Below are positions 1,970-25,477 of a stretch of DNA of 49,917 bases, one piece after another (position 1 is the first letter of the stretch; each line of letters starts with the position of its first letter). Origin of the DNA: Thermodesulfobacteriota bacterium (GTDB taxonomy: Bacteria; Desulfobacterota; Thermodesulfobacteria; Thermodesulfobacteriales; Thermodesulfobacteriaceae); the NCBI GenBank assembly GCA_030578315.1, contig JAUQQL010000005.1, positions 1 through 49,917 on the forward strand. Direction: 5' to 3'. A program made the translations under genes and the position numbers. Below the pieces are notes generated by a model. The model was given only the letters and a program-made list of their open reading frames with translations, had not been told where the DNA came from and did no database searches.

Positions 1970-2954
1970 ATTTTTTTACTATATAATAAGATATTCCAAA
2001 AATTTTTTTATAAAAATTATTCACCTCTTTTTCAAAATTTATATCCTTAAAGTATTCAGGATAAGCTTTTATTGCCATGTAAAGAGCAATGGAAGCAAGT
2101 CTAGGAGACCAAGTAGACCAGTGGGGAAGTTTATAAACTTGTCTTTCTCTAACAGCTTTTACAAATCTCCATTGTAAGTTATTGTAAAGCCAATTCTCGT
2201 CATACCCTGCAGAACCCCATATAAAAATTATATCTGGATTCCACTTGATAATTTTTTCTATTGAAACTTCTGCATTTCTTGCATTTATCTCTTTAGCAAC
2301 ATTTAACCCTCCTATAAGCTCTATAATATCGTGAATAACTCCAAGTCTTCCTGATACAGTTGTAGGTTTGCCTCCTATATGGAGCACTTTCTTTCTTTTA
2401 TCGTAAGGAATTTTTGAAATTTTAGAGTTTATAAGATTAAACATCCTATTCATTTCTTTAATAACTTCTTCTGCCCGTTTTTCCTTGCCAAAAAGTTTTC
2501 CATGAAGTCTAATCACTTCATAAAGTTCAGGTAAACTTTCAGGCCATATTGCTATAACTTTAATACCTCTTTTCTCAAGAAAATTTATAACCTCTGTGTT
2601 ATAACTCCAAGTTATAACTACATCGGGATTCAGTTTTAAAATTGCTTCTACATTGACATTTATCCCAGTCCCAACTGTAGGTTTTATCTGCTTTAACTTA
2701 CCAAAAACAAAAGCTCTGTAAAGACTACAATTTTTTTCAGCCCAGTCTGAAACCCCTACAACTTGATCCCAAAGGTTAAGAGCAGGAATAAGCTCATAAG
2801 TAATAACCACAATAGCTCTTTTAACAGGTACAGAAACACTTACCTTTCTTCCAAGTTTATCAGTAACTGTAATAACTGAAGTAAAACCATATTTAATTAA
2901 CCCAAATAAAATTGTTAAAATTACTAAAATTTTATAGAAAGTTCTGTAAACCAC
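1956..2954 (-). CDS. Periplasmic binding protein of iron-complex ABC transporter (BtuF/FecB-like)
   Basis: This 332-residue protein has an N-terminal hydrophobic segment (about residues 8-24, ILVILTILFGLIKYGF) acting as a signal peptide or anchor, then the class III substrate-binding fold. Typical wording includes ITVTDKLGRKVSVSVPVKRAIVV at the start of the mature domain, NVNVEAILKLNPDVVI and VSIEKIIKWNPDIIFIW. It would hand a ligand received from the outer-membrane receptor to the FecCD permease. The frame opens with GTG at 2954, inside the receptor gene (31-base overlap), and overlaps the permease by 14 bases, so the genes are likely coupled. No lipobox cysteine is seen near the N-terminus. 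Confidence 0.9.
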   Translation of the reverse strand: MVYRTFYKILVILTILFGLIKYGFTSVITVTDKLGRKVSVSVPVKRAIVVITYELIPALNLWDQVVGVSDWAEKNCSLYRAFVFGKLKQIKPTVGTGINVNVEAILKLNPDVVITWSYNTEVINFLEKRGIKVIAIWPESLPELYEVIRLHGKLFGKEKRAEEVIKEMNRMFNLINSKISKIPYDKRKKVLHIGGKPTTVSGRLGVIHDIIELIGGLNVAKEINARNAEVSIEKIIKWNPDIIFIWGSAGYDENWLYNNLQWRFVKAVRERQVYKLPHWSTWSPRLASIALYMAIKAYPEYFKDINFEKEVNNFYKKIFGISYYIVKKYEKY

Positions 2955-5134
2955 GATGCTCCTGGTGCTTTATAATAATAGTAATAATCTCTATCAAAAA
3001 TATTATCAAGCCATAAAGAAAAAGTGGTAAATTTATTTAATTGATAAGATATCCTTACATCAATCACAAAATATTCATCATAAGAACCGTAAACCTTTGA
3101 TTTTTTATCTTTATTTTCATCATCTGAATACCATTTATCCATATACCTTCCTACTACATAAGCCGAAAATTTCCCTTTTTTTAGTTCTACTCCCGCATTT
3201 CCCATCCAAAGAGGAAGATAAGTAAGCCTTTTCCCGACAGTTGTTGGTTTTGCCTTATTTTCTAAAACCTTAGAATCTGTATAGGTAAGATTAGCAAAAA
3301 ATTTTAAGCCGAAATCAAATTTTTGCTCAAAACCAGCTTCCCAACCTTTACTTTCAGCCTTTCCAACATTTATTAAATCTTGGTAAGTAGCATTCACTGT
3401 TTTTCTATAAATCAAGTTATCCATTTTGTTGTAAAAAATTGCAAAATTTACTTTCGCTCCCTTCCATAAGTCTTGAGTTACTCCTGCTTCGTAAGAGATT
3501 ACTGTTTCTGGTTTTAATTCTGGGTTTCCTGCATAAGTTATACCTCTTGCAGAGGTCCAAGTTCTATATAATTCATAAATAGTAGGAGCTCTAAAAGCTT
3601 TTCCCACAGAACCTCTTACCGCAGTTTTTTCAAAAGGTTTATATACAATAGCAACTTTTGGATTAAAAGAAGATTCTGAATTCGAAGGATACTTTATAGG
3701 ATAACCTTTACTTCCAACTTGGTTTACATACCCATCATAGGTTTTCCAAAAATCTTGTCTTGCTCCGACATAAAGGGTTAGATCAGGTCTTAACAAAATT
3801 TCATCTTGTATATAAAAAGCATAGGTTTGAGCTTTTCCTTTAGACTGATATTTTAAACTGACAGTAGACTCTTCATCTTTCCAGTTAGTTAAGTATTTCT
3901 CTTTAGTATTAGCATAGTCCCATCTATAAAAAGCTCCAAAAGTCAATAATTGATTATTAAAAATTGGAAGAGTAAATTGTAAATCAGCTGTAAAAGCTTT
4001 TTGAGGAGTATTACTTACATATCCACAATCTTCAGGCTTTGTTCCAGGTGCACATCCCCAAATTCTTGCCTTACTTCCTACAGTTACATACCAATCTTTT
4101 GTTGTATCAAAATAAGATACATTTAACTTTGTTTTAAGTTTTTTAAAAAATTCTGTTTCAAAAAAGGTTCCATAGATATTATTAACCCTTCCTCCAGAAC
4201 CTGAAAGGTAAGAAACTTCGGAAGGATAATAAACAGGAAGTCCTGTTGTAGCATTAACTAAATAAGTATGTGGTTTGTCGTAATTATATTCATAACGATT
4301 TCTCATAAAGGTAAACCTGACCTTGGTTTTCTCACTAAAATCATATTGTGCCTTGATAGTTATTCCATCATCCCACCATCTGTTATCTCCCCCATTTCCA
4401 GTTATATAAGTTGGGTTTCCATATCTGTCATAACTTGGTTTTGCTCCTGTTATTCCTGTAGGAACTTTAGAAGAAGTTACAAAATCTGTAGGATAACCAT
4501 TTGTGTCATGCCTTCCATAACTTATAAAAAAACTAAGATTTTTAACCTTATCTCCGTAGCTAAAATAAGCCCTTTTTAAATCATCCATGGCATCTCCTCT
4601 ATCAAAAGAACTTCCATACCCAGTTTTTAAAACTACTTCTCTTTTTTCTGGCATTTTGGTAATAAAATTTACTACCCCTGCCATGGCATATCCACCATAT
4701 AAAGAAGAAAAAGGTCCCTTAACAACTTCTATCTTTTCCAAATCTTCAGGGAAAAAACCTCCTAATTTAATATTTCCTACATAAGGAGTGTTTAAAACCG
4801 TTCCATCCATAAGAATTAAAGTTCTTTTTTGCTCCCCTAAACCTCTCAAAGTAATAAAAGACAGAGTATCCATTAACCCTTTACTTCTTCTTATCATAAC
4901 TCCAGAAACATCGTTTAAAGCCTCATCAATAGTTTTTGGCTTTTTTACTTCTATTTTTTCTTTACTTACTACATTTACACTTGCAGGAGCCATTCTTACT
5001 TCAACTTCAGTTCTCGTTGCTGTAACGACAACTTCAGGAAGTTCTTTAGCCCTTTTAAATTCTTCAGCCTTAAGTAATTGAATAAACGCAAAAATTAATA
5101 TTAATTGTAAAATAATATAACAAAATTTTTTCAT
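2924..5134 (-). CDS. TonB-dependent outer-membrane receptor
   Basis: This 736-residue protein has a signal peptide (about residues 1-23), a TonB-box-like stretch ELPEVVVTATR near residues 31-41, a plug domain (about 45-155) and a 22-strand barrel-type remainder ending in phenylalanine (ELSIKF), as expected for assembly by BamA. It would take up a scarce ligand, most likely an iron chelate, using TonB energy; tonB, exbB and exbD are not in the window. The ATG at 5134 has the Shine-Dalgarno AAAAGGAGG at 5139-5147. It is the first gene of the receptor, binding protein, permease and ATPase transcript. A Fur-box-like site and a good promoter lie just upstream. The exact ligand is unresolved. Confidence 0.94.
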   Translation of the reverse strand: MKKFCYIILQLILIFAFIQLLKAEEFKRAKELPEVVVTATRTEVEVRMAPASVNVVSKEKIEVKKPKTIDEALNDVSGVMIRRSKGLMDTLSFITLRGLGEQKRTLILMDGTVLNTPYVGNIKLGGFFPEDLEKIEVVKGPFSSLYGGYAMAGVVNFITKMPEKREVVLKTGYGSSFDRGDAMDDLKRAYFSYGDKVKNLSFFISYGRHDTNGYPTDFVTSSKVPTGITGAKPSYDRYGNPTYITGNGGDNRWWDDGITIKAQYDFSEKTKVRFTFMRNRYEYNYDKPHTYLVNATTGLPVYYPSEVSYLSGSGGRVNNIYGTFFETEFFKKLKTKLNVSYFDTTKDWYVTVGSKARIWGCAPGTKPEDCGYVSNTPQKAFTADLQFTLPIFNNQLLTFGAFYRWDYANTKEKYLTNWKDEESTVSLKYQSKGKAQTYAFYIQDEILLRPDLTLYVGARQDFWKTYDGYVNQVGSKGYPIKYPSNSESSFNPKVAIVYKPFEKTAVRGSVGKAFRAPTIYELYRTWTSARGITYAGNPELKPETVISYEAGVTQDLWKGAKVNFAIFYNKMDNLIYRKTVNATYQDLINVGKAESKGWEAGFEQKFDFGLKFFANLTYTDSKVLENKAKPTTVGKRLTYLPLWMGNAGVELKKGKFSAYVVGRYMDKWYSDDENKDKKSKVYGSYDEYFVIDVRISYQLNKFTTFSLWLDNIFDRDYYYYYKAPGASWFTELSIKF

Positions 5135-13109: not shown

Positions 13110-14069
13110 TTATCCTCCAATTGCTCTCATAGGCTTCAAGGTAAAATTTTTAAGTCCTTTTTCGGGCTTCTTTTTTAAAGCTAATTCAAAAATTTTTTTC
13201 AAAGAAGTTTTTCTTTCTCTTAAAGCAGATTTTAAATCTATTTCAAAATCTGAAAAAAGACAAGGTCTTAATCTTCCATCTGCAGTAATTCTCATTCTAT
13301 TACAATTTTTACAAATGTGTTCGCTTAAGGGCGAAATTAGTCCTATTTTTCCTAAAGCTCCTTCCCATCTATAACTTTTAGCTGGACCTCCTCCTACTGA
13401 AATTACTGGTTCTAATTTCTTAAAACTTTCCAAGATTCTTTTTACTTCTGCTATATAAAACACCTTGCTTTCGTTCCATAAAGGATTTTTTCCAATGGGC
13501 ATAAATTCTATAAATCTTACTTCTAAAGGTTTGTCTAGAGAAAGTTTTGCTAAATCAATTATCTCTTCGTCGTTAAAGCCTTTTATTACTACTACATTTA
13601 TTTTTATAGGATTAAAACCTACCTCTAAAGCTTTTTCTATTCCCCTTAAAATTTTGTTCAATTCATCTTTACCTGTAAGTTTTTTAAATTTTTCTCTTTT
13701 TAAAGTATCTAAACTTATGTTAATTCTTTTTAAACCTGCAGCTTTAAGAATCAAAGCTTTTTCTTCTAAAAAATAACCATTAGTTGTTAAACTTAAATCC
13801 TCTATTCCTGCAATTTGTGATAATTTTTTAATAAGAACTTCTACATTTTTTCTTAAAAGTGGTTCTCCTCCAGTTAGTCTAATTCTTTTTACTCCAAGTT
13901 CTGAAGAAACTCTCGCTATTTCTTCAATTTCTTCAAAACTTAGAATCTCTTCTGAAGATAGCCACTTCCAAGGTTTTTTACTCTGACAGTAGATACAGTT
14001 AAAGTTACAACGATCAGTGATAGAAATTCTTAAGTATTCTATCCCTCTTCCGTAAGAGTCAACAAGCAT
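13110..14069 (-). CDS. moaA: GTP 3',8-cyclase MoaA
   Basis: This 319-residue radical-SAM enzyme converts GTP to the cyclic intermediate in the first step of molybdenum cofactor synthesis, with MoaC acting next. The N-terminal cluster motif is CNFNCIYC, followed by RLTGGEPLLR and LTTNGYFL. The C-terminal cluster comprises CKNCNRMR and a third cysteine in RPCLFS. The chain ends in the conserved Gly-Gly (RAIGG) required for activity. Its ATG at 14069 lies 31 bases inside the DUF4416 gene. moaC is about 9 kb away in another operon on the same strand. Confidence 0.96.
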   Translation of the reverse strand: MLVDSYGRGIEYLRISITDRCNFNCIYCQSKKPWKWLSSEEILSFEEIEEIARVSSELGVKRIRLTGGEPLLRKNVEVLIKKLSQIAGIEDLSLTTNGYFLEEKALILKAAGLKRINISLDTLKREKFKKLTGKDELNKILRGIEKALEVGFNPIKINVVVIKGFNDEEIIDLAKLSLDKPLEVRFIEFMPIGKNPLWNESKVFYIAEVKRILESFKKLEPVISVGGGPAKSYRWEGALGKIGLISPLSEHICKNCNRMRITADGRLRPCLFSDFEIDLKSALRERKTSLKKIFELALKKKPEKGLKNFTLKPMRAIGG

Positions 14070-17760: not shown

Positions 17761-20700
17761 TTAAGAAGTGAGGTACTTTAAAAGAATTTCAGAAGTAGGT
17801 GTTTGGACCTTTAAAAATTCCTCTATTGGTCCTTGAAAAAGAAGATATCCTCCTTTTTCTCCTCCTTCTGGTCCAAGTTCAATTATCCAATCTGCATGTT
17901 TAATGAGTTCTAAGTTATGCTCAATAACTACTACAGTGTGTCCTTTTTCTATAAGACCTTGTAAGACTTTAACCAATTTTTCTACATCTTTTATGTGAAG
18001 TCCTGTAGTTGGTTCATCTAAAAGAAATAGAGTAGGACTTTGAGAAGTTTTAACAAATTCCTTTGCTAATTTTATTCTTTGAGCTTCTCCTCCAGAAAGT
18101 GTAGGACTTGGTTGACCTAAACTTAAATAATCAAGTCCTATATCACATACTACTTTAAGTTTTTTTTTGATAGAATCATAATTTTCAAAAAATTCCTGAG
18201 CAGATAAAAAGTCCATTTCTAGGATCTCAGCTATATTTTTTCCTTTTAAAGTTACCTCTAAAGTTTCAGGATTATATCTTTTTCCTTGACAGTATTCGCA
18301 AACTTGATAAACTTCTGGTAAAAACTTAATTTCTATCTTTACTGAACCCTGTCCTTTACAATATGAACATTGGCCCTCTGAAGTATTGAAAGAAAATCTA
18401 CTTTCTTTATACCCTCTTTCTTTAGCTAAAAGAGTATTGGTAAAGGCTGACCTTATTTCTGTCCAGACATTTATGTAGGTGGCAGGTGTTGAACGAGGCG
18501 TATTTCCTATAGGGGAATGGTCAACCAAATAAACTCTTTTAATTTTTTCTTTACCTTCTACTTCTTGCCGATCTAAAAAAGAAATCTTGTCTTCTTTTAA
18601 GCTTTTATAGAGTACTTCGCATATTAAAGTAGACTTTCCAGAACCTGAAACTCCTACAACTACTGTCAAAGCTTGAAGAGGAATAGAAACTGTTAAGTTT
18701 TTAAGATTTCTCATCCGAACCTCTTTAAGGGTCAAGAAATTTTTAGGTTTCCTTTTTAAGCTTTCTATTTTTTTTCTCATTGGATTTTTAAGAGCTTTAG
18801 CAGTTTCTGAAGCCTCACACTTAAGAAGCTCTGAAGGAGGGCCTGCAAAGACTACCTTTCCCCCTCTTTTTCCTCCTCCTGGACCTAAGTCCACTACAAA
18901 ATCACTAGCTAAAATAGTGTCTTCATCATGTTCTACTACTACCACGGTATTTCCTTTTTCTTTTAAATTTTTTAAAACCTCTATAAGTCTAGCATTATCT
19001 CTAGGATGGAGTCCAATAGTTGGTTCATCAAGAATGTAGGCTACTCCAGTAAGACTACTTCCAATTTCTGCCGCAATTCTTACTCGTTTAGCTTCCCCTG
19101 CTGAAAGGGTATCTGCAGATCTTGAAAGGGTTAAATAACCTACCCCTAAATTTATTAAACAATTAAGCCGTGAAAGAATTTCTGCGATCAATTCTTCCCC
19201 AAGAAGTTTTTCCTTTCCTTCAAGTTTTAAATTTTCTAGAAACTTTTTAGTTTCTTCTAAACTTAAATTACAAAGTTCTGGAAGAGAAATTCCGTTAATT
19301 TTATAAAAAAAGACCTCCTTTTTGTAACGAGAACCTTTACAGGAAGGACAAACCCTTTCTTCTATTCTTCCTAAACCTTGGCAAGTTGAACAAGCACCAA
19401 TTTTGGAATTAAATGCAAAAAGTAGAGGGTCAGGCTCAGGAAGACTTATACCACATTTTATACAAGCTCTTTTTTGACTAAAAATATAATCTTTTTTTCC
19501 TGTGCAAAGTATCACTTCTCCTTTACCTTCTTTTAAAGCGCTAAAAAAAAGTTCTTCAAAGGTCCTTTTATTAGCTAAAGTACCTTCTCCTATAACAGCT
19601 TCAATTGTATGTTCTTTAAATCGAGAAAGTACTGGGAAAGGTGGTATTTTACAAAAAATTCCGTCAACTCTTATTTTTTTAATACCTTCTCTTAAAAGCC
19701 TTTCAAAAAGATTTTTATAGATGCCCTTACGATGTTTAACCAAGGGAGCTAAAAAAGTTAATAAAGTTTCTGAAGAAACTTCTTCGGATAAGAGTTTTTG
19801 AGCCAAGACTAAAAGCTCATCTTCAGAAGAGGGTCTTAACTCCTCTTCACAAACAGGGCAGAAAGACCTAGCTATTTTAGAATAAAGAAGCCTTAAATAA
19901 GGTAAAATTTCAGTAAGGGTACCAACTGTTGAACGGGGAGATAGTTCTCCAGAACGTTGTTCTAAAGCTACTGTAGGAGGAAGTCCAGAAATTAAATCAT
20001 AGTCAATTTCCTTATAAAGTTTTATAAACTGTCTTAGATAGGTAGGAAGAGTTTCTAAAAATCTTCTTTGTCCTTCAGTAAAAAGTACATCAAAGGCTAA
20101 GGTTGATTTTCCTGAACCAGAAACTCCAGTAATAACTATAAATTTTCCTCTTGGGAGGTCTAAATCTATATTTTTCAAATTGTGCTGTCTTACTCCTCTA
20201 AACTTTATAAATGGTTCTTTATAAGAGTAAGAGGGCTTTTGAACCAGTTCCTTTAAATTTAGTCCTTTTAAGTAAGTTTTCAGGTATTTAGAGGTAAGTG
20301 TAGAAGTTTTGATAAACTCTTCTATTGGTCCTTGAAAAAGAAGATACCCTCCTTTTTCTCCTCCTTCTGGTCCAAGCTCAATTATCCAATCTGAGTAGAG
20401 AATAATTTCAGGATGATGTTCTACTATGACTACAGTGTGTCCATCATCTCTCAAAAACCTAAGAACCTGCAAAAGATTTTGAATATCTTTTAAGTGAAGT
20501 CCTATCGTAGGTTCATCTAAAAGAATTAAAGCCTTTTCAGTTTTTATGGAATTTAAAAATTCAGCTATTTTTAATCTCTGAGCCTCTCCTCCTGAAAGAG
20601 TAGAAAGAGGTTGTCCCAACTTTAAATATCCTAATCCCAGTTGTTTTAAGATACTTAAAGAAATTTTAATTTGGGTATGATTTTTAAAAAACTCATAGGC

Positions 20701-22947
20701 CGAATCTACAGTTAGTTCAAGTATTTCGGCAATGTTTTTATCTTTCCATTTAATTTCTAAAACTTCTTCTTTAAACCGGGTGCCTTTACAAACTTCACAT
20801 GGAAAGACTAAGTCAGAAAGAAACTGCATTTCTACTATTTCAACCCCCAATCCTTTACATTCTGGACACTGAGCTATCTCAGAATTGAAAGAAAAAAAGT
20901 TCTCCGAATATCCATACTTTTTAGCCATATGAGTGCTTGCTAAAAGTTTTTTAATATAAGGATAAATTCCCATATAAGTTGCTACTACGGACCTTGGAGA
21001 GCGTGCTAAGGGTTCTTGGGTGAGAAGTAAAACCTGAGAAACAGTTTCAGACTTAGAGAGCTTTTCAGAAGCATAGCTATAAATTTCTTCTAAAAGAGTT
21101 GACTTTCCTGAACCAGAAACCCCAACTATGCAAGTTATCCGATGAAGAGGAATCTTAACTTCGATATTTTTGAGATTATGTTTTTTTACTTTAGAAAAAG
21201 TTAAAAACGAAACTTCTTTTAAAAAGAAGGTAGTAATTTCTCTTGGAGAAGAGACTTCTTTTAAAGCCTGAGCTGTTGGAGTTTTTAAGTTAAAAATTTC
21301 TCTTGGTGAACCTGCAAAAAGAAGATACCCTCCTTTTTCTCCTCCTTCTGGTCCCAGGTCTATCAGAAAATCTGCTGAAACAATAACTTCAGGGTCATGT
21401 TCTACTACCACAACTGTGTTATTTTGCGAAACAAGTTTTTTCATAAACTTTAAAATCTTTTGCGTATCAGTAGGATGAAGCCCTGCAGTAGGTTCATCAA
21501 TAAGGTAAAGAGTTTCCACTAAGTTAGAAGATAAAGCCCTGGTAAGAAGACATCTACTAGCTTCTCCTCCTGAAAGAGTTTTGGCAGGACGGTTTAAAGT
21601 TAAATAAGAAAGACCTACCTCTTCTAAATAGGAAAGTCTTTTTCTAATTTCTTCAGCTAACCTTAACTCAACTTTAGAGAAATTACTTTTTAAAAACTCT
21701 TCTATCCACTTCTTGGCTGACTTTACCTCTAAAGAATAAAAATCTCCTATATTAATTTCGTTGATGTAAAAAATTAGAGCTTGAGGATTAAATCTAGTTC
21801 CTTTACAAACTGGACACACTTCTTCTCTTCTCAATTTAGAAAGAAGAATTCTAAAATGAGGTTTATATTTGTGAGTCTCAAGCCACTCCACTACTTCTTT
21901 TAATCCATACCATTTTCCCTCTCCATAAAAAATTTTATATTTAATTTCCTCAGGTAAGGTATAAAAGGGGGTTTCAAGGCTTATACTTTTGGTTTTTAAA
22001 AATTCAAAAAGATCCCACTTAACCTCTAACATCATTGGATAATCTAAAATAGGAATAGCTCCATTTTTAATGGATCTTTCTGGAAACTTAACTAGAGAGT
22101 TGAGATCAACTATTAAGAGAGTTCCAAAACCTTTGCACTCTGGACACGCTCCCTGAGAAGTATTAAAGGAAAAAAGATGGGCAGTTTTAGGCGGAACTTT
22201 AAAGCCACACTTAGGACATTCTGATAACTTGGTATACCAAGCTTCTTCTCCATAAAATGTTTTAACTTTTAAATGGGAACCAATTTTAAATGCAAGTTCA
22301 ACACTAGATACAAGATTTAAGAATTCTTCTTCAGTTACTTTTAGTCTATGAAGAAGAAGATCAATTTCTTCAAAATCGAAGTTTTCTAATTCCTCTAGTT
22401 CACAAACTTTTCCATTTATAAAAGCCCTACTAAATCCAGCTGCCAAAAGCCCTTCTTTTAGATACTTGAATTCTTTTTTTACTTTTTGGGGAACAAGAAG
22501 ATAAACCGGAATGTTTTTAAAGTGTGCTAAAATTTCTGTGGCTATGGTGTGTGGGTCTTTAACTTTAATAATTTGCTTACACACAGGACATTTTGGAAGA
22601 CTTTTAAAATAATAAAGCATTTTAGTGAAATGACTGATTTCTGTAAGAGTAGCTACAGTTGAACGGGAGGTTTTTACATAGTTTCCTTGAGGAAAAGCTA
22701 AGGCAGGAGGAACATTAAAGATAGCTAAAGCTTTAGGTTTAGGAAGTCTTTCAAAATACTGTCTTACATAAGAGGAAAAGGTTTCCAAATACCTTCTTTG
22801 TCCTTCAGCATAAAGAGTTTCAAAAACTAAGCTAGACTTGCCTGCTCCAGAAACTCCTGTAACTACAATAAAGTGATAAAAAGGAATCTTAAGGTCAAAA
22901 TTTTTAAGATTATTTTGATGAACTGAGTAAATTTCTAAAAACTTCAC
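17761..22947 (-). CDS. uvrA: Double-length excinuclease UvrA (tandem fusion)
   Basis: The 1728-residue protein is two UvrA units in one chain; normal UvrA has about 940 residues. UvrA recognises DNA damage and loads UvrB. Four Walker A loops lie at about 31, 609, 941 and 1432, and four signatures at 457, 783, 1280 (TLSAGEA) and 1616. Walker B DE pairs lie near 484, 811, 1307 and 1644. Both halves keep a UvrB-binding-type region between zinc cysteines (120-247 and 1030-1165). In half one about 106 residues of insertion domain separate CPEC271 from CPVC378; in half two the same gap (1189-1200) is only ten residues. Half two has the more canonical ATPase motifs. The start is GTG at 22947, 12 bases after moaC-dksA. 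Confidence 0.95.
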   Translation of the reverse strand: MKFLEIYSVHQNNLKNFDLKIPFYHFIVVTGVSGAGKSSLVFETLYAEGQRRYLETFSSYVRQYFERLPKPKALAIFNVPPALAFPQGNYVKTSRSTVATLTEISHFTKMLYYFKSLPKCPVCKQIIKVKDPHTIATEILAHFKNIPVYLLVPQKVKKEFKYLKEGLLAAGFSRAFINGKVCELEELENFDFEEIDLLLHRLKVTEEEFLNLVSSVELAFKIGSHLKVKTFYGEEAWYTKLSECPKCGFKVPPKTAHLFSFNTSQGACPECKGFGTLLIVDLNSLVKFPERSIKNGAIPILDYPMMLEVKWDLFEFLKTKSISLETPFYTLPEEIKYKIFYGEGKWYGLKEVVEWLETHKYKPHFRILLSKLRREEVCPVCKGTRFNPQALIFYINEINIGDFYSLEVKSAKKWIEEFLKSNFSKVELRLAEEIRKRLSYLEEVGLSYLTLNRPAKTLSGGEASRCLLTRALSSNLVETLYLIDEPTAGLHPTDTQKILKFMKKLVSQNNTVVVVEHDPEVIVSADFLIDLGPEGGEKGGYLLFAGSPREIFNLKTPTAQALKEVSSPREITTFFLKEVSFLTFSKVKKHNLKNIEVKIPLHRITCIVGVSGSGKSTLLEEIYSYASEKLSKSETVSQVLLLTQEPLARSPRSVVATYMGIYPYIKKLLASTHMAKKYGYSENFFSFNSEIAQCPECKGLGVEIVEMQFLSDLVFPCEVCKGTRFKEEVLEIKWKDKNIAEILELTVDSAYEFFKNHTQIKISLSILKQLGLGYLKLGQPLSTLSGGEAQRLKIAEFLNSIKTEKALILLDEPTIGLHLKDIQNLLQVLRFLRDDGHTVVIVEHHPEIILYSDWIIELGPEGGEKGGYLLFQGPIEEFIKTSTLTSKYLKTYLKGLNLKELVQKPSYSYKEPFIKFRGVRQHNLKNIDLDLPRGKFIVITGVSGSGKSTLAFDVLFTEGQRRFLETLPTYLRQFIKLYKEIDYDLISGLPPTVALEQRSGELSPRSTVGTLTEILPYLRLLYSKIARSFCPVCEEELRPSSEDELLVLAQKLLSEEVSSETLLTFLAPLVKHRKGIYKNLFERLLREGIKKIRVDGIFCKIPPFPVLSRFKEHTIEAVIGEGTLANKRTFEELFFSALKEGKGEVILCTGKKDYIFSQKRACIKCGISLPEPDPLLFAFNSKIGACSTCQGLGRIEERVCPSCKGSRYKKEVFFYKINGISLPELCNLSLEETKKFLENLKLEGKEKLLGEELIAEILSRLNCLINLGVGYLTLSRSADTLSAGEAKRVRIAAEIGSSLTGVAYILDEPTIGLHPRDNARLIEVLKNLKEKGNTVVVVEHDEDTILASDFVVDLGPGGGKRGGKVVFAGPPSELLKCEASETAKALKNPMRKKIESLKRKPKNFLTLKEVRMRNLKNLTVSIPLQALTVVVGVSGSGKSTLICEVLYKSLKEDKISFLDRQEVEGKEKIKRVYLVDHSPIGNTPRSTPATYINVWTEIRSAFTNTLLAKERGYKESRFSFNTSEGQCSYCKGQGSVKIEIKFLPEVYQVCEYCQGKRYNPETLEVTLKGKNIAEILEMDFLSAQEFFENYDSIKKKLKVVCDIGLDYLSLGQPSPTLSGGEAQRIKLAKEFVKTSQSPTLFLLDEPTTGLHIKDVEKLVKVLQGLIEKGHTVVVIEHNLELIKHADWIIELGPEGGEKGGYLLFQGPIEEFLKVQTPTSEILLKYLTS
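17822..17894. repeat. Internal uvrA repeat, copy A
   Basis: This 73-base segment is identical to 20321-20393 at 71 of 73 positions. It encodes the conserved end of the second ATPase domain of UvrA half two (around residues 1684-1708). Confidence 0.85.
20321..20393. repeat. Internal uvrA repeat, copy B
   Basis: This is the matching 73 bases from the end of UvrA half one (around residues 852-876). A 39-base part is also identical at 21316-21354, in the first ATPase domain. The rest of the two halves is far more diverged. Confidence 0.85.
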
Positions 22948-22959
22948 TTTAAAGAAGTT

Positions 22960-23805
22960 CTATTCACCCCGAATCTTTTCCATTCTTTCTTGAGCTCTTT
23001 TACAATCTATACATAAAGTAGCTTCAGGACGAGCAGTAAGTCTTTTTTCGTCAATTTCAGACCCACAAATTTCACAAATTCCATATGTTCCTTCTTCTAT
23101 TTTTTGCAAAGCTTTTTCTATTTTTCTCAAAAGTTTTCTTTCTCGGTCTCTTAATCTTAATTCAAAAGTAAGGTTGCTTTCGCGAGAAGCTAAGTCTACT
23201 ACATCAGGCATAGGTTCTGTACCTTCAATAAGTTCTTTTTTGGTTTCCAATGCTTCTTTTATTATTTGTTCTCGTCTTTCTAAGAGTAAATTTTTAAAAA
23301 ATTCAAGTTTTTCTTTTTCCATAAAACCTCCTTTTTCTTCAAAATCTCCGCTTTTACCTCCTTTTTTGTAGACTAATCTAATTTTGTCAATCTTGATACC
23401 TTTGTGAAGGGACTTACACATGTCATAAACTGTAAGAGCTGCAATGGATACCGAAGTTAAGGCTTCCATTTCCACACCTGTTTGAGCTACCGCAGTAACT
23501 TCGGAAGTTATTTCAAGACTAAAATTTTCGGGAATGAACCTAAAAGATATGTCTACATGAGAAATAGGCAAAGGATGGCAGAGAGGAATAAGTTCTGAAG
23601 TTTTTTTGGCTGCTAAAATACCAGCTACTTTAGCACAAGCAAGGAAGTCCCCTTTAGGAATATTTTGGGAAAGAATTTGAGGATAAATTTCAGGAGGAAA
23701 AATTACTTCAGCTTTGGCTATAGCTTTTCTTTCAGTAACAGTTTTTGAAGAAACATCAACCATCTGTAAACTGCCGTTTTCTTTTAGATGAGAAAAAGAA
23801 GACAT
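22960..23805 (-). CDS. moaC: MoaC-DksA fusion: cyclic pyranopterin phosphate synthase joined to a DksA/TraR zinc-finger protein
   Basis: This 281-residue frame joins two proteins. Residues 1-155 are a complete MoaC, which makes cyclic pyranopterin monophosphate in molybdenum cofactor synthesis: KKTSELIPLCHPLPIS, TGVEMEALTSVSIAALTVYDMCK and the terminal GGKSGDF are all present. Residues 162-281 are a complete DksA-type protein with a coiled coil, the tip motif DVVDLA (201-206) and zinc cysteines 244, 247, 265 and 268, which would bind the RNA polymerase secondary channel. The linker EEKGGF is encoded by a perfect Shine-Dalgarno sequence before Met162, so DksA may also be made separately. It lies between dnaJ and uvrA. 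No stop or frameshift is seen. Confidence 0.88.
   Translation of the reverse strand: MSSFSHLKENGSLQMVDVSSKTVTERKAIAKAEVIFPPEIYPQILSQNIPKGDFLACAKVAGILAAKKTSELIPLCHPLPISHVDISFRFIPENFSLEITSEVTAVAQTGVEMEALTSVSIAALTVYDMCKSLHKGIKIDKIRLVYKKGGKSGDFEEKGGFMEKEKLEFFKNLLLERREQIIKEALETKKELIEGTEPMPDVVDLASRESNLTFELRLRDRERKLLRKIEKALQKIEEGTYGICEICGSEIDEKRLTARPEATLCIDCKRAQERMEKIRGE
23320..23336 (-). promoter_or_regulatory. Ribosome-binding site and internal start for DksA inside the moaC-dksA frame
   Basis: Reverse-strand AAAAAGGAGG (plus 23327-23336) precedes ATG (plus 23320-23322) by TTTT. The same GGAGG-TTTT-ATG spacing is used by the TonB receptor gene, so it should work as a translation start for a free 120-residue DksA. 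Confidence 0.7.
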
Positions 23806-23814
23806 ATTTACTTG

Positions 23815-24960
23815 TTAGCGAAACAATATTTTTTCCCAGAAACTTTCTTTCTTTTTTTTAGAACTTTTTAAAGAAGAATTTTTTTCTAAAGTTTGGTTAA
23901 AATTTTCTAACCCTTCTACTTGAGCCAGTTTTCTTAAAAGTTCCTCTCCTTCTTTACTTAATTTCTTAGGAAGTTCTACCTGAATTTTAAAAATTAAATC
24001 TCCCTTTTTTTGAGTCTTAGGGTCAAGAAGACCTTCTTCTTTTAAAACAATTTCGTCTCCTGGCTGAGTTCCTGGAGGAATTTTAACTTTTAAAATTTTA
24101 CCAAAGTAGGGAATTTCTATTTCATCTCCTAAAATAGCCGAAATAAAACTAATTTTTAACTGAGCTAACACATGATTTTTTTCTCGATAAAAGTATTTGT
24201 GAGGACGGACTTTAATTCTAATATATAAATCTCCTGGTCTTCCTCCAAAAAGACCACTTTCTCCTTCTCCTTGAATTCTTAATATAGTTCCATCTTCTAC
24301 CCCTGGAGGAATAATGATGTCTAATTCTTTTTTCTTCCAAACTCTTCCTGAACCATTACAATTTTTACACTTTGCTACATAAAGAGTACCTCTTCCTCTA
24401 CAGTCAGGACATGTATAAGTTACTCTAAAAAAACCTTCGGAATAAGAAACTTTTCCTTTACCTCTACAGCTTTCACATAACTTAACTCCCCTTTCAAGAT
24501 CGTATCCCAAACCTGAGCAAAATTCACAAGGTTCGTACTTTTCTATTTCTAGTTTAACTTTTTTCTCCTTAAAAAGATCTTCAAAATCAATTTCTAACTC
24601 ATAAGAAAGGTCTGCTCCTGGCTGAGGCTTTCTTTCTTCTCTTTCTCCAAAAGGAAAGCCAAAAAATTCTTCAAACAGGTCTGAAAAAGTTTTGAAAATG
24701 TCCGTAATATCTTCAAAACCTCGATAACCAGAAGACCTAAGCCCTACATATCCCTGACTGTCATAAATAGCTCTTTTATGGGGGTCAGATAATACCTCAT
24801 AAGCTTCTGAGATTTCTTTAAATTTTTCCTCTGCTTCTTTGTTTCCCTGATTTCGATCTGGATGATACTTAAGAGCTAAGCGTCTATAAGCTCTTTTTAT
24901 TTCTTCTTGAGTAGCGTTTCTTGGAACTCCTAAAATAGCATAATAATCTTTATACTGCAT
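23815..24960 (-). CDS. dnaJ: Chaperone protein DnaJ
   Basis: This 381-residue Hsp40 co-chaperone stimulates DnaK. It has the J domain with YHPDRNQG (HPD at about 33-35), a short glycine/phenylalanine region and four CxxCxGxG zinc repeats ([32 protein letters not shown]). The C-terminal peptide-binding domains follow. This is a full type I DnaJ. dnaK and grpE are not in the window. The ATG at 24960 is 3 bases after the rpoZ stop, and moaC-dksA follows within 10 bases. Confidence 0.96.
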
Positions 24961-24963
24961 AAC

Positions 24964-25227
24964 TTACTTCAAAATTTTTTCTTTAAAAATTTGAGAAATT
25001 TCGTAAGAGGAAGCAGTTTTTTCTTTTTTACCCAGCTCTTTTATGTTCTCAAAAGTAACCAAGCCTGCGGCAATTTCTCTAAGCACAGTTACAATTTCTT
25101 TATTATCACAGGTTAAAAGAGGAGGGCTGCCTTCTCTTAATTGTTTAACTCTTTCTATTGCTAAAGTAATGAGCTTAAATCTACTAGGAATTTTTTTTAA
25201 ACAATCCTCTACAGTAATTCTTGCCAT
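24964..25227 (-). CDS. rpoZ: RNA polymerase omega subunit
   Basis: This 87-residue protein begins MARITVEDC and has RFKLITLAIERVKQL and KEIVTVLREIAAG, the RpoZ pattern. Omega assists assembly of the beta-prime subunit. The N-terminal MAR motif that contributes to ppGpp site 1 in E. coli is present. It lies 28 bases after nfu and 3 bases before dnaJ on the same strand, in a transcript that also carries the DksA domain. Confidence 0.92.
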   Translation of the reverse strand: MARITVEDCLKKIPSRFKLITLAIERVKQLREGSPPLLTCDNKEIVTVLREIAAGLVTFENIKELGKKEKTASSYEISQIFKEKILK

Positions 25228-25255
25228 TGATCTTACACCCCTTCTAAAATAAACT

Positions 25256-25477
25256 TTAAACAGCTATAACTTCCACTATTTCAGGTACTTCTTTTTTTAA
25301 ATACCTTTCAATACCTGCTTTTAAAGTTACCATAGCCATAGGACATCCACCACAAGCACCTTTAAGTCTAACTTTTACCACTCCATCTTCCGTAACCTCA
25401 ACCAGTTCTACATCTCCTCCATCAGCTTGAAGCATAGGTCTTACTTTAGCTAAAGCTTGCTCTACTAATTCTTTCAT
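25256..25477 (-). CDS. NifU C-terminal (Nfu) domain protein
   Basis: This 73-residue iron-sulfur carrier has the Nfu motif [18 protein letters not shown]. The CxxC pair bridges a [4Fe-4S] cluster between two subunits for delivery to target enzymes. [14 protein letters not shown] is the usual N-terminal part. It is a stand-alone Nfu domain, as is common in anaerobes. The ATG at 25477 has AAAGGAGG upstream. It is the first gene of the nfu-rpoZ-dnaJ-moaC/dksA-uvrA run and diverges from ilvD. Moco enzymes and IlvD both use iron-sulfur clusters, so proximity may matter. Confidence 0.92.

Follow-up and report, generated by a model that had tools for sequence, protein, structure and literature searches.

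A moaC-dksA fused reading frame that keeps a dksA ribosome site in its linker, found in two sister species of Thermodesulfobacteriaceae

What does it mean for a bacterium when the gene of a cofactor-synthesis enzyme, moaC, runs without a stop codon into the gene of an RNA polymerase regulator, dksA? The question is posed by a stretch of 49,917 nucleotides from a Thermodesulfobacteriota bacterium (contig JAUQQL010000005.1), which as a whole we call the window, and whose host appears from sequence comparison to belong to the same genus as Thermodesulfobacterium hydrogeniphilum (DSM 14290, our G002). The answer depends on whether the frame is truly open, how the junction came about, and whether one protein or two are made from it.

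The fused frame and its two halves

The frame opens with ATG and continues for 281 codons without a stop (Table 1). An earlier note on this DNA had claimed a complete MoaC joined in frame to a complete DksA, and the family models bear this out: within the one open frame, both domains exceed curated NCBIfam cut-offs, TIGR00581 (moaC) with 190.7 bits against 141.5 over positions 1-148 of a 148-position profile, and TIGR02420 (dksA) with 126.8 bits against 115.5 over positions 1-109 of 110. Pfam places MoaC at residues 15-150 (E 1.9e-53), DksA_N at 166-236 (E 5.1e-22) and zf-dskA_traR at 239-274 (E 5.5e-12), each over its cut-off. The coordinates that the note had assigned to the linker, the Shine-Dalgarno sequence and Met162 are right as given, and lack only the strand, which is minus.

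Table 1. Coordinates of the fused frame, its parts and the neighbouring genes within the window
Feature	Position	Strand	Basis
moaC-dksA fused reading frame, 281 aa	22960..23805	-	ORF reading, Pfam, NCBIfam
MoaC part, residues 1-150	23356..23805	-	Pfam, NCBIfam, ungapped alignment to 1ekr/4pyd
Linker, residues 151-161 (KSGDFEEKGGF)	23323..23355	-	sequence; pLDDT <50 at 153-159
AAAAAGGAGGTTTT with Shine-Dalgarno core GGAGG at 23331-23327	23323..23336	-	four bases ahead of Met162
Internal ATG (Met162), putative start of a free 120-aa DksA	23320..23322	-	separate dksA genes of relatives start there
DksA part, residues 162-281 plus stop	22960..23322	-	Pfam, NCBIfam, kept key residues
dnaJ, upstream of moaC	23815..24960	-	surroundings comparison
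rpoZ (RNA polymerase omega / Rpb6 family)	24964..25227	-	surroundings comparison
NifU-domain protein, first gene of the run	25256..25477	-	surroundings comparison
Double-length uvrA, downstream of the fusion	17761..22947	-	Pfam, NCBIfam, surroundings comparison

Residue by residue, both halves look functional. MoaC is a hexamer, and the MoaC half aligns without gaps to the Escherichia coli protein (1ekr, 4pyd) over residues 1-157, keeping R26, K51, H77, E112, E114, D128 and K131 at the E. coli positions, which we take to be those of the active site; titles of PDB entries include the MoaC variants K51A and Asp128Ala. The DksA half aligns, again ungapped, to residues 34-147 of E. coli DksA and retains the four zinc cysteines together with D71, D74 and A76 of the DxxDxA motif, presumably the tip of the coiled coil. 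Also kept are R91, L95, K98, R129 and K139, named as ppGpp site 2 residues in PMC7676912. An AlphaFold model of the 281-residue monomer consists of two confident domains (mean pLDDT 88.5, pTM 0.59), of which Foldseek matches the first to 4pyd and the second to 4ijj, 7khi and 1tjl, while pLDDT falls below 50 at linker residues 153-159; the linker is thus predicted to be flexible, with no fixed arrangement of the domains.

Neither half turned up a second time in the genome, which has one match to the whole query and one DksA-type zinc finger, so that the fused copy is the only dksA detected. There is likewise one RelA/SpoT match, and one MoaA match over the cut-off (13116-14066 of the window) beside eight weaker matches to the MoaA model below it. 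A PSP1-domain gene and a DUF4416 gene flank the moaA frame itself (13110-14069, minus strand), at a distance of about 9 kb from the fusion. Elsewhere in the genome, a molybdopterin oxidoreductase frame of 1012 aa (G000:C38:2503-4155, minus strand), which appears as two match rows in one frame, contains one in-frame TGA and is possibly a selenocysteine formate dehydrogenase.

Distribution and origin of the fusion

The same open fusion occurs over the full query in a sister species (G003; the metagenome-assembled genome SKYB108, Thermodesulfobacteriaceae), on a contig of its own (JANXAD010000023.1) and with 92% protein identity. The two frames differ with an NG86 dN of 0.038 and a dS of 0.96, and dN/dS is low in both halves; the linkers read KSGDFEEKGGF in the window and KSGEKGGF in the sister species, the latter being 9 nt shorter and in frame. 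A real stop codon erased by an assembly or sequencing error could also account for such a frame, and the window does sit in an assembly of 71 contigs with an estimated contamination of 5.17%. However, because a second species, on its own contig and with a linker of different length, has the same open fusion, error is very unlikely as the cause, and we give it next to no probability; the register is unbroken as well, and dN/dS stays low on either side of the junction. Since the two species form one clade, with support of 100/100 in a DnaJ tree and 100/99 in a MoaC tree (25 rows each), a single origin of the fusion is the simplest reading.

Beyond this pair, the two genes are as a rule separate neighbours in the close relatives compared. 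Among 60 relatives, the window's own genome included, 57 match the query and only the two fused genomes are open over its full length. The 40 other genomes of the order among these (G001-G040) hold both genes together in 37 cases, with no match in G009, G029 and G040; one of these 37 pairs is fused (G003), 11 are in frame with one stop between (G002, G005, G014, G018, G021, G025, G028, G031, G033, G036, G037), and 25 are in different frames, one of which (G010) has an insertion of 1463 nt. More distantly, moaC and dksA are adjacent in 6 of 19 genomes of the phylum (G042, G046, G049, G055, G056 and G059 among G041-G059), and in the other 13 they lie apart or only one was matched. Two of the six, G055 and G059, had looked like further fusions by an identical open-frame length for their MoaC and DksA matches (315 and 319 aa); their DNA has intergenic stops. 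As side observations, G009 is a same-genus genome, 92% complete, that matches neither half of the query and may lack both genes; the dksA of G006 (L104) ends early at a TAA and so lacks the final 10 residues found in G001 and G013; and two MoaC frames, of 292 aa (L064, G048) and 306 aa (L063, G043), carry C-terminal extensions other than DksA.

Wider searches gave the same result. Of 30 genomes of the family, 28 match and the same two are open over the full query. A phylum-wide draw of 395 genomes at E<=1e-52 yielded 30 matches, the window's own genome being the only one with a full-length match free of stops (G003 is absent from the listed matches and hence outside that draw); 14 more distant genomes have both genes in one whole-query match, all with stops. 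At E<=1e-60, the order of G338 (46 genomes) gave 13 full-length matches and that of G308 (29 genomes) gave 6, again all with stops, and of 74 matching plasmid records none covers 80% of the query. In total at most 461 distinct genomes were covered, many only under strict cut-offs that would miss a distant fusion scoring lower or split over two rows; among the genomes searched, the fusion was found only in the clade of two species.

The genes on either side form a tightly packed run in the order nifU-rpoZ-dnaJ-moaC-dksA-uvrA. In a sample of 37 other genomes, all picked for a nearby moaC-dksA pair and hence non-random, a same-strand DnaJ match lies 5′ of moaC in 36 and a same-strand RpoZ match in 32, and a double-length UvrA lies 3′ of dksA, likewise on the same strand, in 17. 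The rpoZ-dnaJ-moaC-dksA run (22960-25477 of the window, minus strand) is found in the host's own order and in some more distant members of the phylum. Each of the two ppGpp sites of RNA polymerase has a small partner, omega in one case and DksA in the other, and the run brings both into one cluster. The UvrA of the window, 1728 aa long, comprises two tandem UvrA copies, with TIGR00630 matching in three stretches; it scores 1257 bits against the 3054 required by the long UvrA model NF001885.

How such neighbours come to be joined can be seen in part from the 36 unfused junctions that we read, where the genes are spaced by 0-87 nt, or by 1463 nt in G010, or overlap. The gap in G010 (L090:6946-8358), between an intact moaC and an intact dksA, holds a 399-aa ORF on the opposite strand that resembles, by eye, what we take to be an IS110-type transposase. 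In seven of the 36 (G001, G006, G013, G016, G017, G338, G260) the dksA Shine-Dalgarno core begins within moaC: the genes overlap by 1 nt in G001, G006 and G013, while in G016 and G017 moaC runs 20 nt past the dksA start in a different frame. No such core was seen ahead of dksA in four (G046, G059, G229, G308). It seems, then, that the moaC tail has come to cover the dksA ribosome site repeatedly, and that the two frames agree by chance in the fused pair. The earlier note had derived the fusion from the loss of one stop codon between neighbours, a proposal that finds a fitting counterpart in the family members G021 and G025, unfused and in the same register as the fusion (GGKSG-EVILE-stop-GGS-Met); given this layout, stop loss would suffice. 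A small in-frame deletion could also have removed the stop, since both fused moaC tails are shorter than those of relatives, by differing amounts. In either case, since the dksA ribosome site already lies within moaC in those seven unfused genomes, the fusion looks like what the loss of a stop gives when closely packed genes share a frame.

The internal ribosome site and its products

The joined frame has a ribosome site and a start codon inside it. Directly 5′ of Met162 stands AAAAAGGAGG-TTTT, with the GGAGG core four bases from the ATG, and Met162 aligns with the start codon of the separate dksA genes of relatives; the dksA ribosome site is therefore kept in the linker, in line with what the earlier note had proposed. 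Such a site is unusual for the interior of a coding sequence. Over 43 ORFs of the window, namely rpoZ, nifU and 41 ORFs that reach 120 aa or more, and with starts chosen mechanically, GGAGG stands 4-9 nt upstream of 2 of 188 internal in-frame ATGs, Met162 included, and of 6 of 43 gene starts; widening the core set to GGAGG, AGGAG or AAGGA makes the counts 4 of 188 and 9 of 43. The start of moaC has no Shine-Dalgarno core even by the wider set, and the gene at 2924-5134 begins with the identical AAAAAGGAGGTTTT-ATG.

Two products, a MoaC with a DksA tail and a free DksA, would most likely be made from this frame. As we see it, the moaC stop codon was probably lost within the packed run, giving a lineage-specific fusion; ribosomes initiating at moaC would then make MoaC with a flexibly tethered C-terminal DksA, and those initiating at Met162 an ordinary free DksA, which would take on the ppGpp and RNA polymerase functions. 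Rather than serving a new circuit, the tail is probably one that MoaC can tolerate. With no further dksA found in this genome, the internal start would be the simplest reason why the fusion does no harm. We consider this explanation, taken whole, to be probably correct, with three points against it. An open frame kept across a dS of about 1, with an in-frame 9-nt indel, could reflect selection on the joined frame; the fused form might suffice, in which case the start at Met162 could go unused; and Met162 is no more accessible in the RNA than the other internal ATGs of the run (0.41, where these have a mean of 0.50 and an sd of 0.10 for n=13). The structure around Met162 has z values of 0.26 in the window and -0.90 in the sister species, these figures and the accessibilities being calculated with 37 C parameters for a host presumed to be a thermophile, and so uninformative.

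In a rather different reading, only or mainly the 281-residue protein is used, and MoaC assemblies bearing DksA coiled coils couple cofactor synthesis to the control of RNA polymerase. Its attraction is that the frame is open in two species across a dS of about 0.96 despite the indel, that the genome has no other moaC or dksA that we could find, and that key residues are kept in both halves. However, a simulated neutral frame stays open in both species with P of 0.42 or 0.64, which a factor of 1/3 for an in-frame indel brings to 0.14-0.21, so that the persistence of an open linker is consistent with neutrality and the open joined frame is not evidence for selection. The same reading is further weakened by the low-confidence linker and the pTM of 0.59, with no fixed domain arrangement predicted, by the retained internal ribosome site, and by the searches of other genomes, which at their cut-offs gave no further full-length match that is open; we regard it as improbable. 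An even less probable variant would have the 281-residue protein act as a bifunctional regulator, with MoaC assemblies carrying flexibly tethered DksA arms, while the DksA made on its own from Met162 would be the uncoupled form. If true, it would physically couple the synthesis of the molybdopterin precursor to RNA polymerase and ppGpp control. The link between cofactor synthesis and stringent-type control that the earlier note had suggested has, in our view, no support other than the fusion: the two genes are neighbours in most of the genomes of the order compared and in some distant ones, mostly behind rpoZ and dnaJ where we looked, the fusion was found only in one clade of two species, moaC extends over the dksA ribosome site in frames that yield no fusion as well, and there is no sign of selection for the joined protein.

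Alternatively, both products may be made, with the tail inert and the passage of MoaC-translating ribosomes across the dksA site tuning initiation at Met162, so that the arrangement acts on dosage. Such coupling would fit the observation that moaC covers the dksA Shine-Dalgarno core in several lineages and in different frames (the fused pair, G001/G006/G013, G016/G017, G338 and G260). Yet several other adjacent ORFs of the window overlap too, as judged with mechanically chosen starts, so overlap need not be special, and in G010 the transposase-like ORF separates the intact genes. We hold a dosage device to be unlikely, if less so than a functional fusion, and retain the stop-loss fusion with a tolerated tail as the preferred explanation. 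Even so read, the locus shows cleanly how two neighbours have become one gene in nature, the unfused, the overlapping and the fused state all occurring within one order. The one copy detected of an RNA polymerase regulator here forms the tail of a metabolic enzyme. The locus also lends itself to a simple test, namely whether, once a stop is lost, the downstream protein is rescued by an internal ribosome site.

Comparison with known systems

The NCBIfam models matched by the window protein include none for a MoaC-DksA fusion. Nor was this fusion found in the open-access literature, among the matches listed in a search of titles and the starts of abstracts, a scope that leaves out most subscription papers and all bioRxiv preprints, and open-access full texts yielded nothing pairing Thermodesulfobacteria with DksA; MoaC and DksA occur together in two of the papers listed, with DksA mentioned once in each. 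Three known MoaC fusions likewise join MoaC and a second domain in one chain: MoaC/MoaB (NF002947), MoaC/MOSC (NF011069) and MoaC/MobA (NF011070). The window protein stays below their cut-offs, with 183.6 of 285, 189.3 of 457 and 137.7 of 606 bits, respectively, and its second domain is DksA, not MoaB, MOSC or MobA; whereas their partners are cofactor-related domains, the partner here, a transcription factor, has a ribosome site of its own. Separately, the 306-aa MoaC frame of G043 resembles MoaC-MOSC, as judged by eye.

Compared with free DksA (TIGR02420; E. coli 1tjl and 7khi), the 120-residue DksA of the window shares the DxxDxA tip, the Cys4 zinc finger and the ppGpp site 2 residues but differs in being encoded at the C-terminal end of a MoaC chain as well. 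A DksA/TraR zinc finger has been linked to TYPP-domain proteins (PMC4275035), where, as here, a finger of this type is part of a multidomain protein; the partner there is different and the source speaks of a C4 zinc finger, whereas the DksA of the window is complete. Isoforms from internal starts are already known, and in this light MoaC-DksA is a new fusion architecture of ordinary origin. CCNA_02448 of Caulobacter has an internal in-frame start that gives two isoforms (PMC4117421), and for that gene the source reports two proteins from one frame with two in-frame starts, whereas for the window the two proteins are proposed; the short form in the window differs in corresponding to a whole gene that stands, in relatives, as a separate neighbour.
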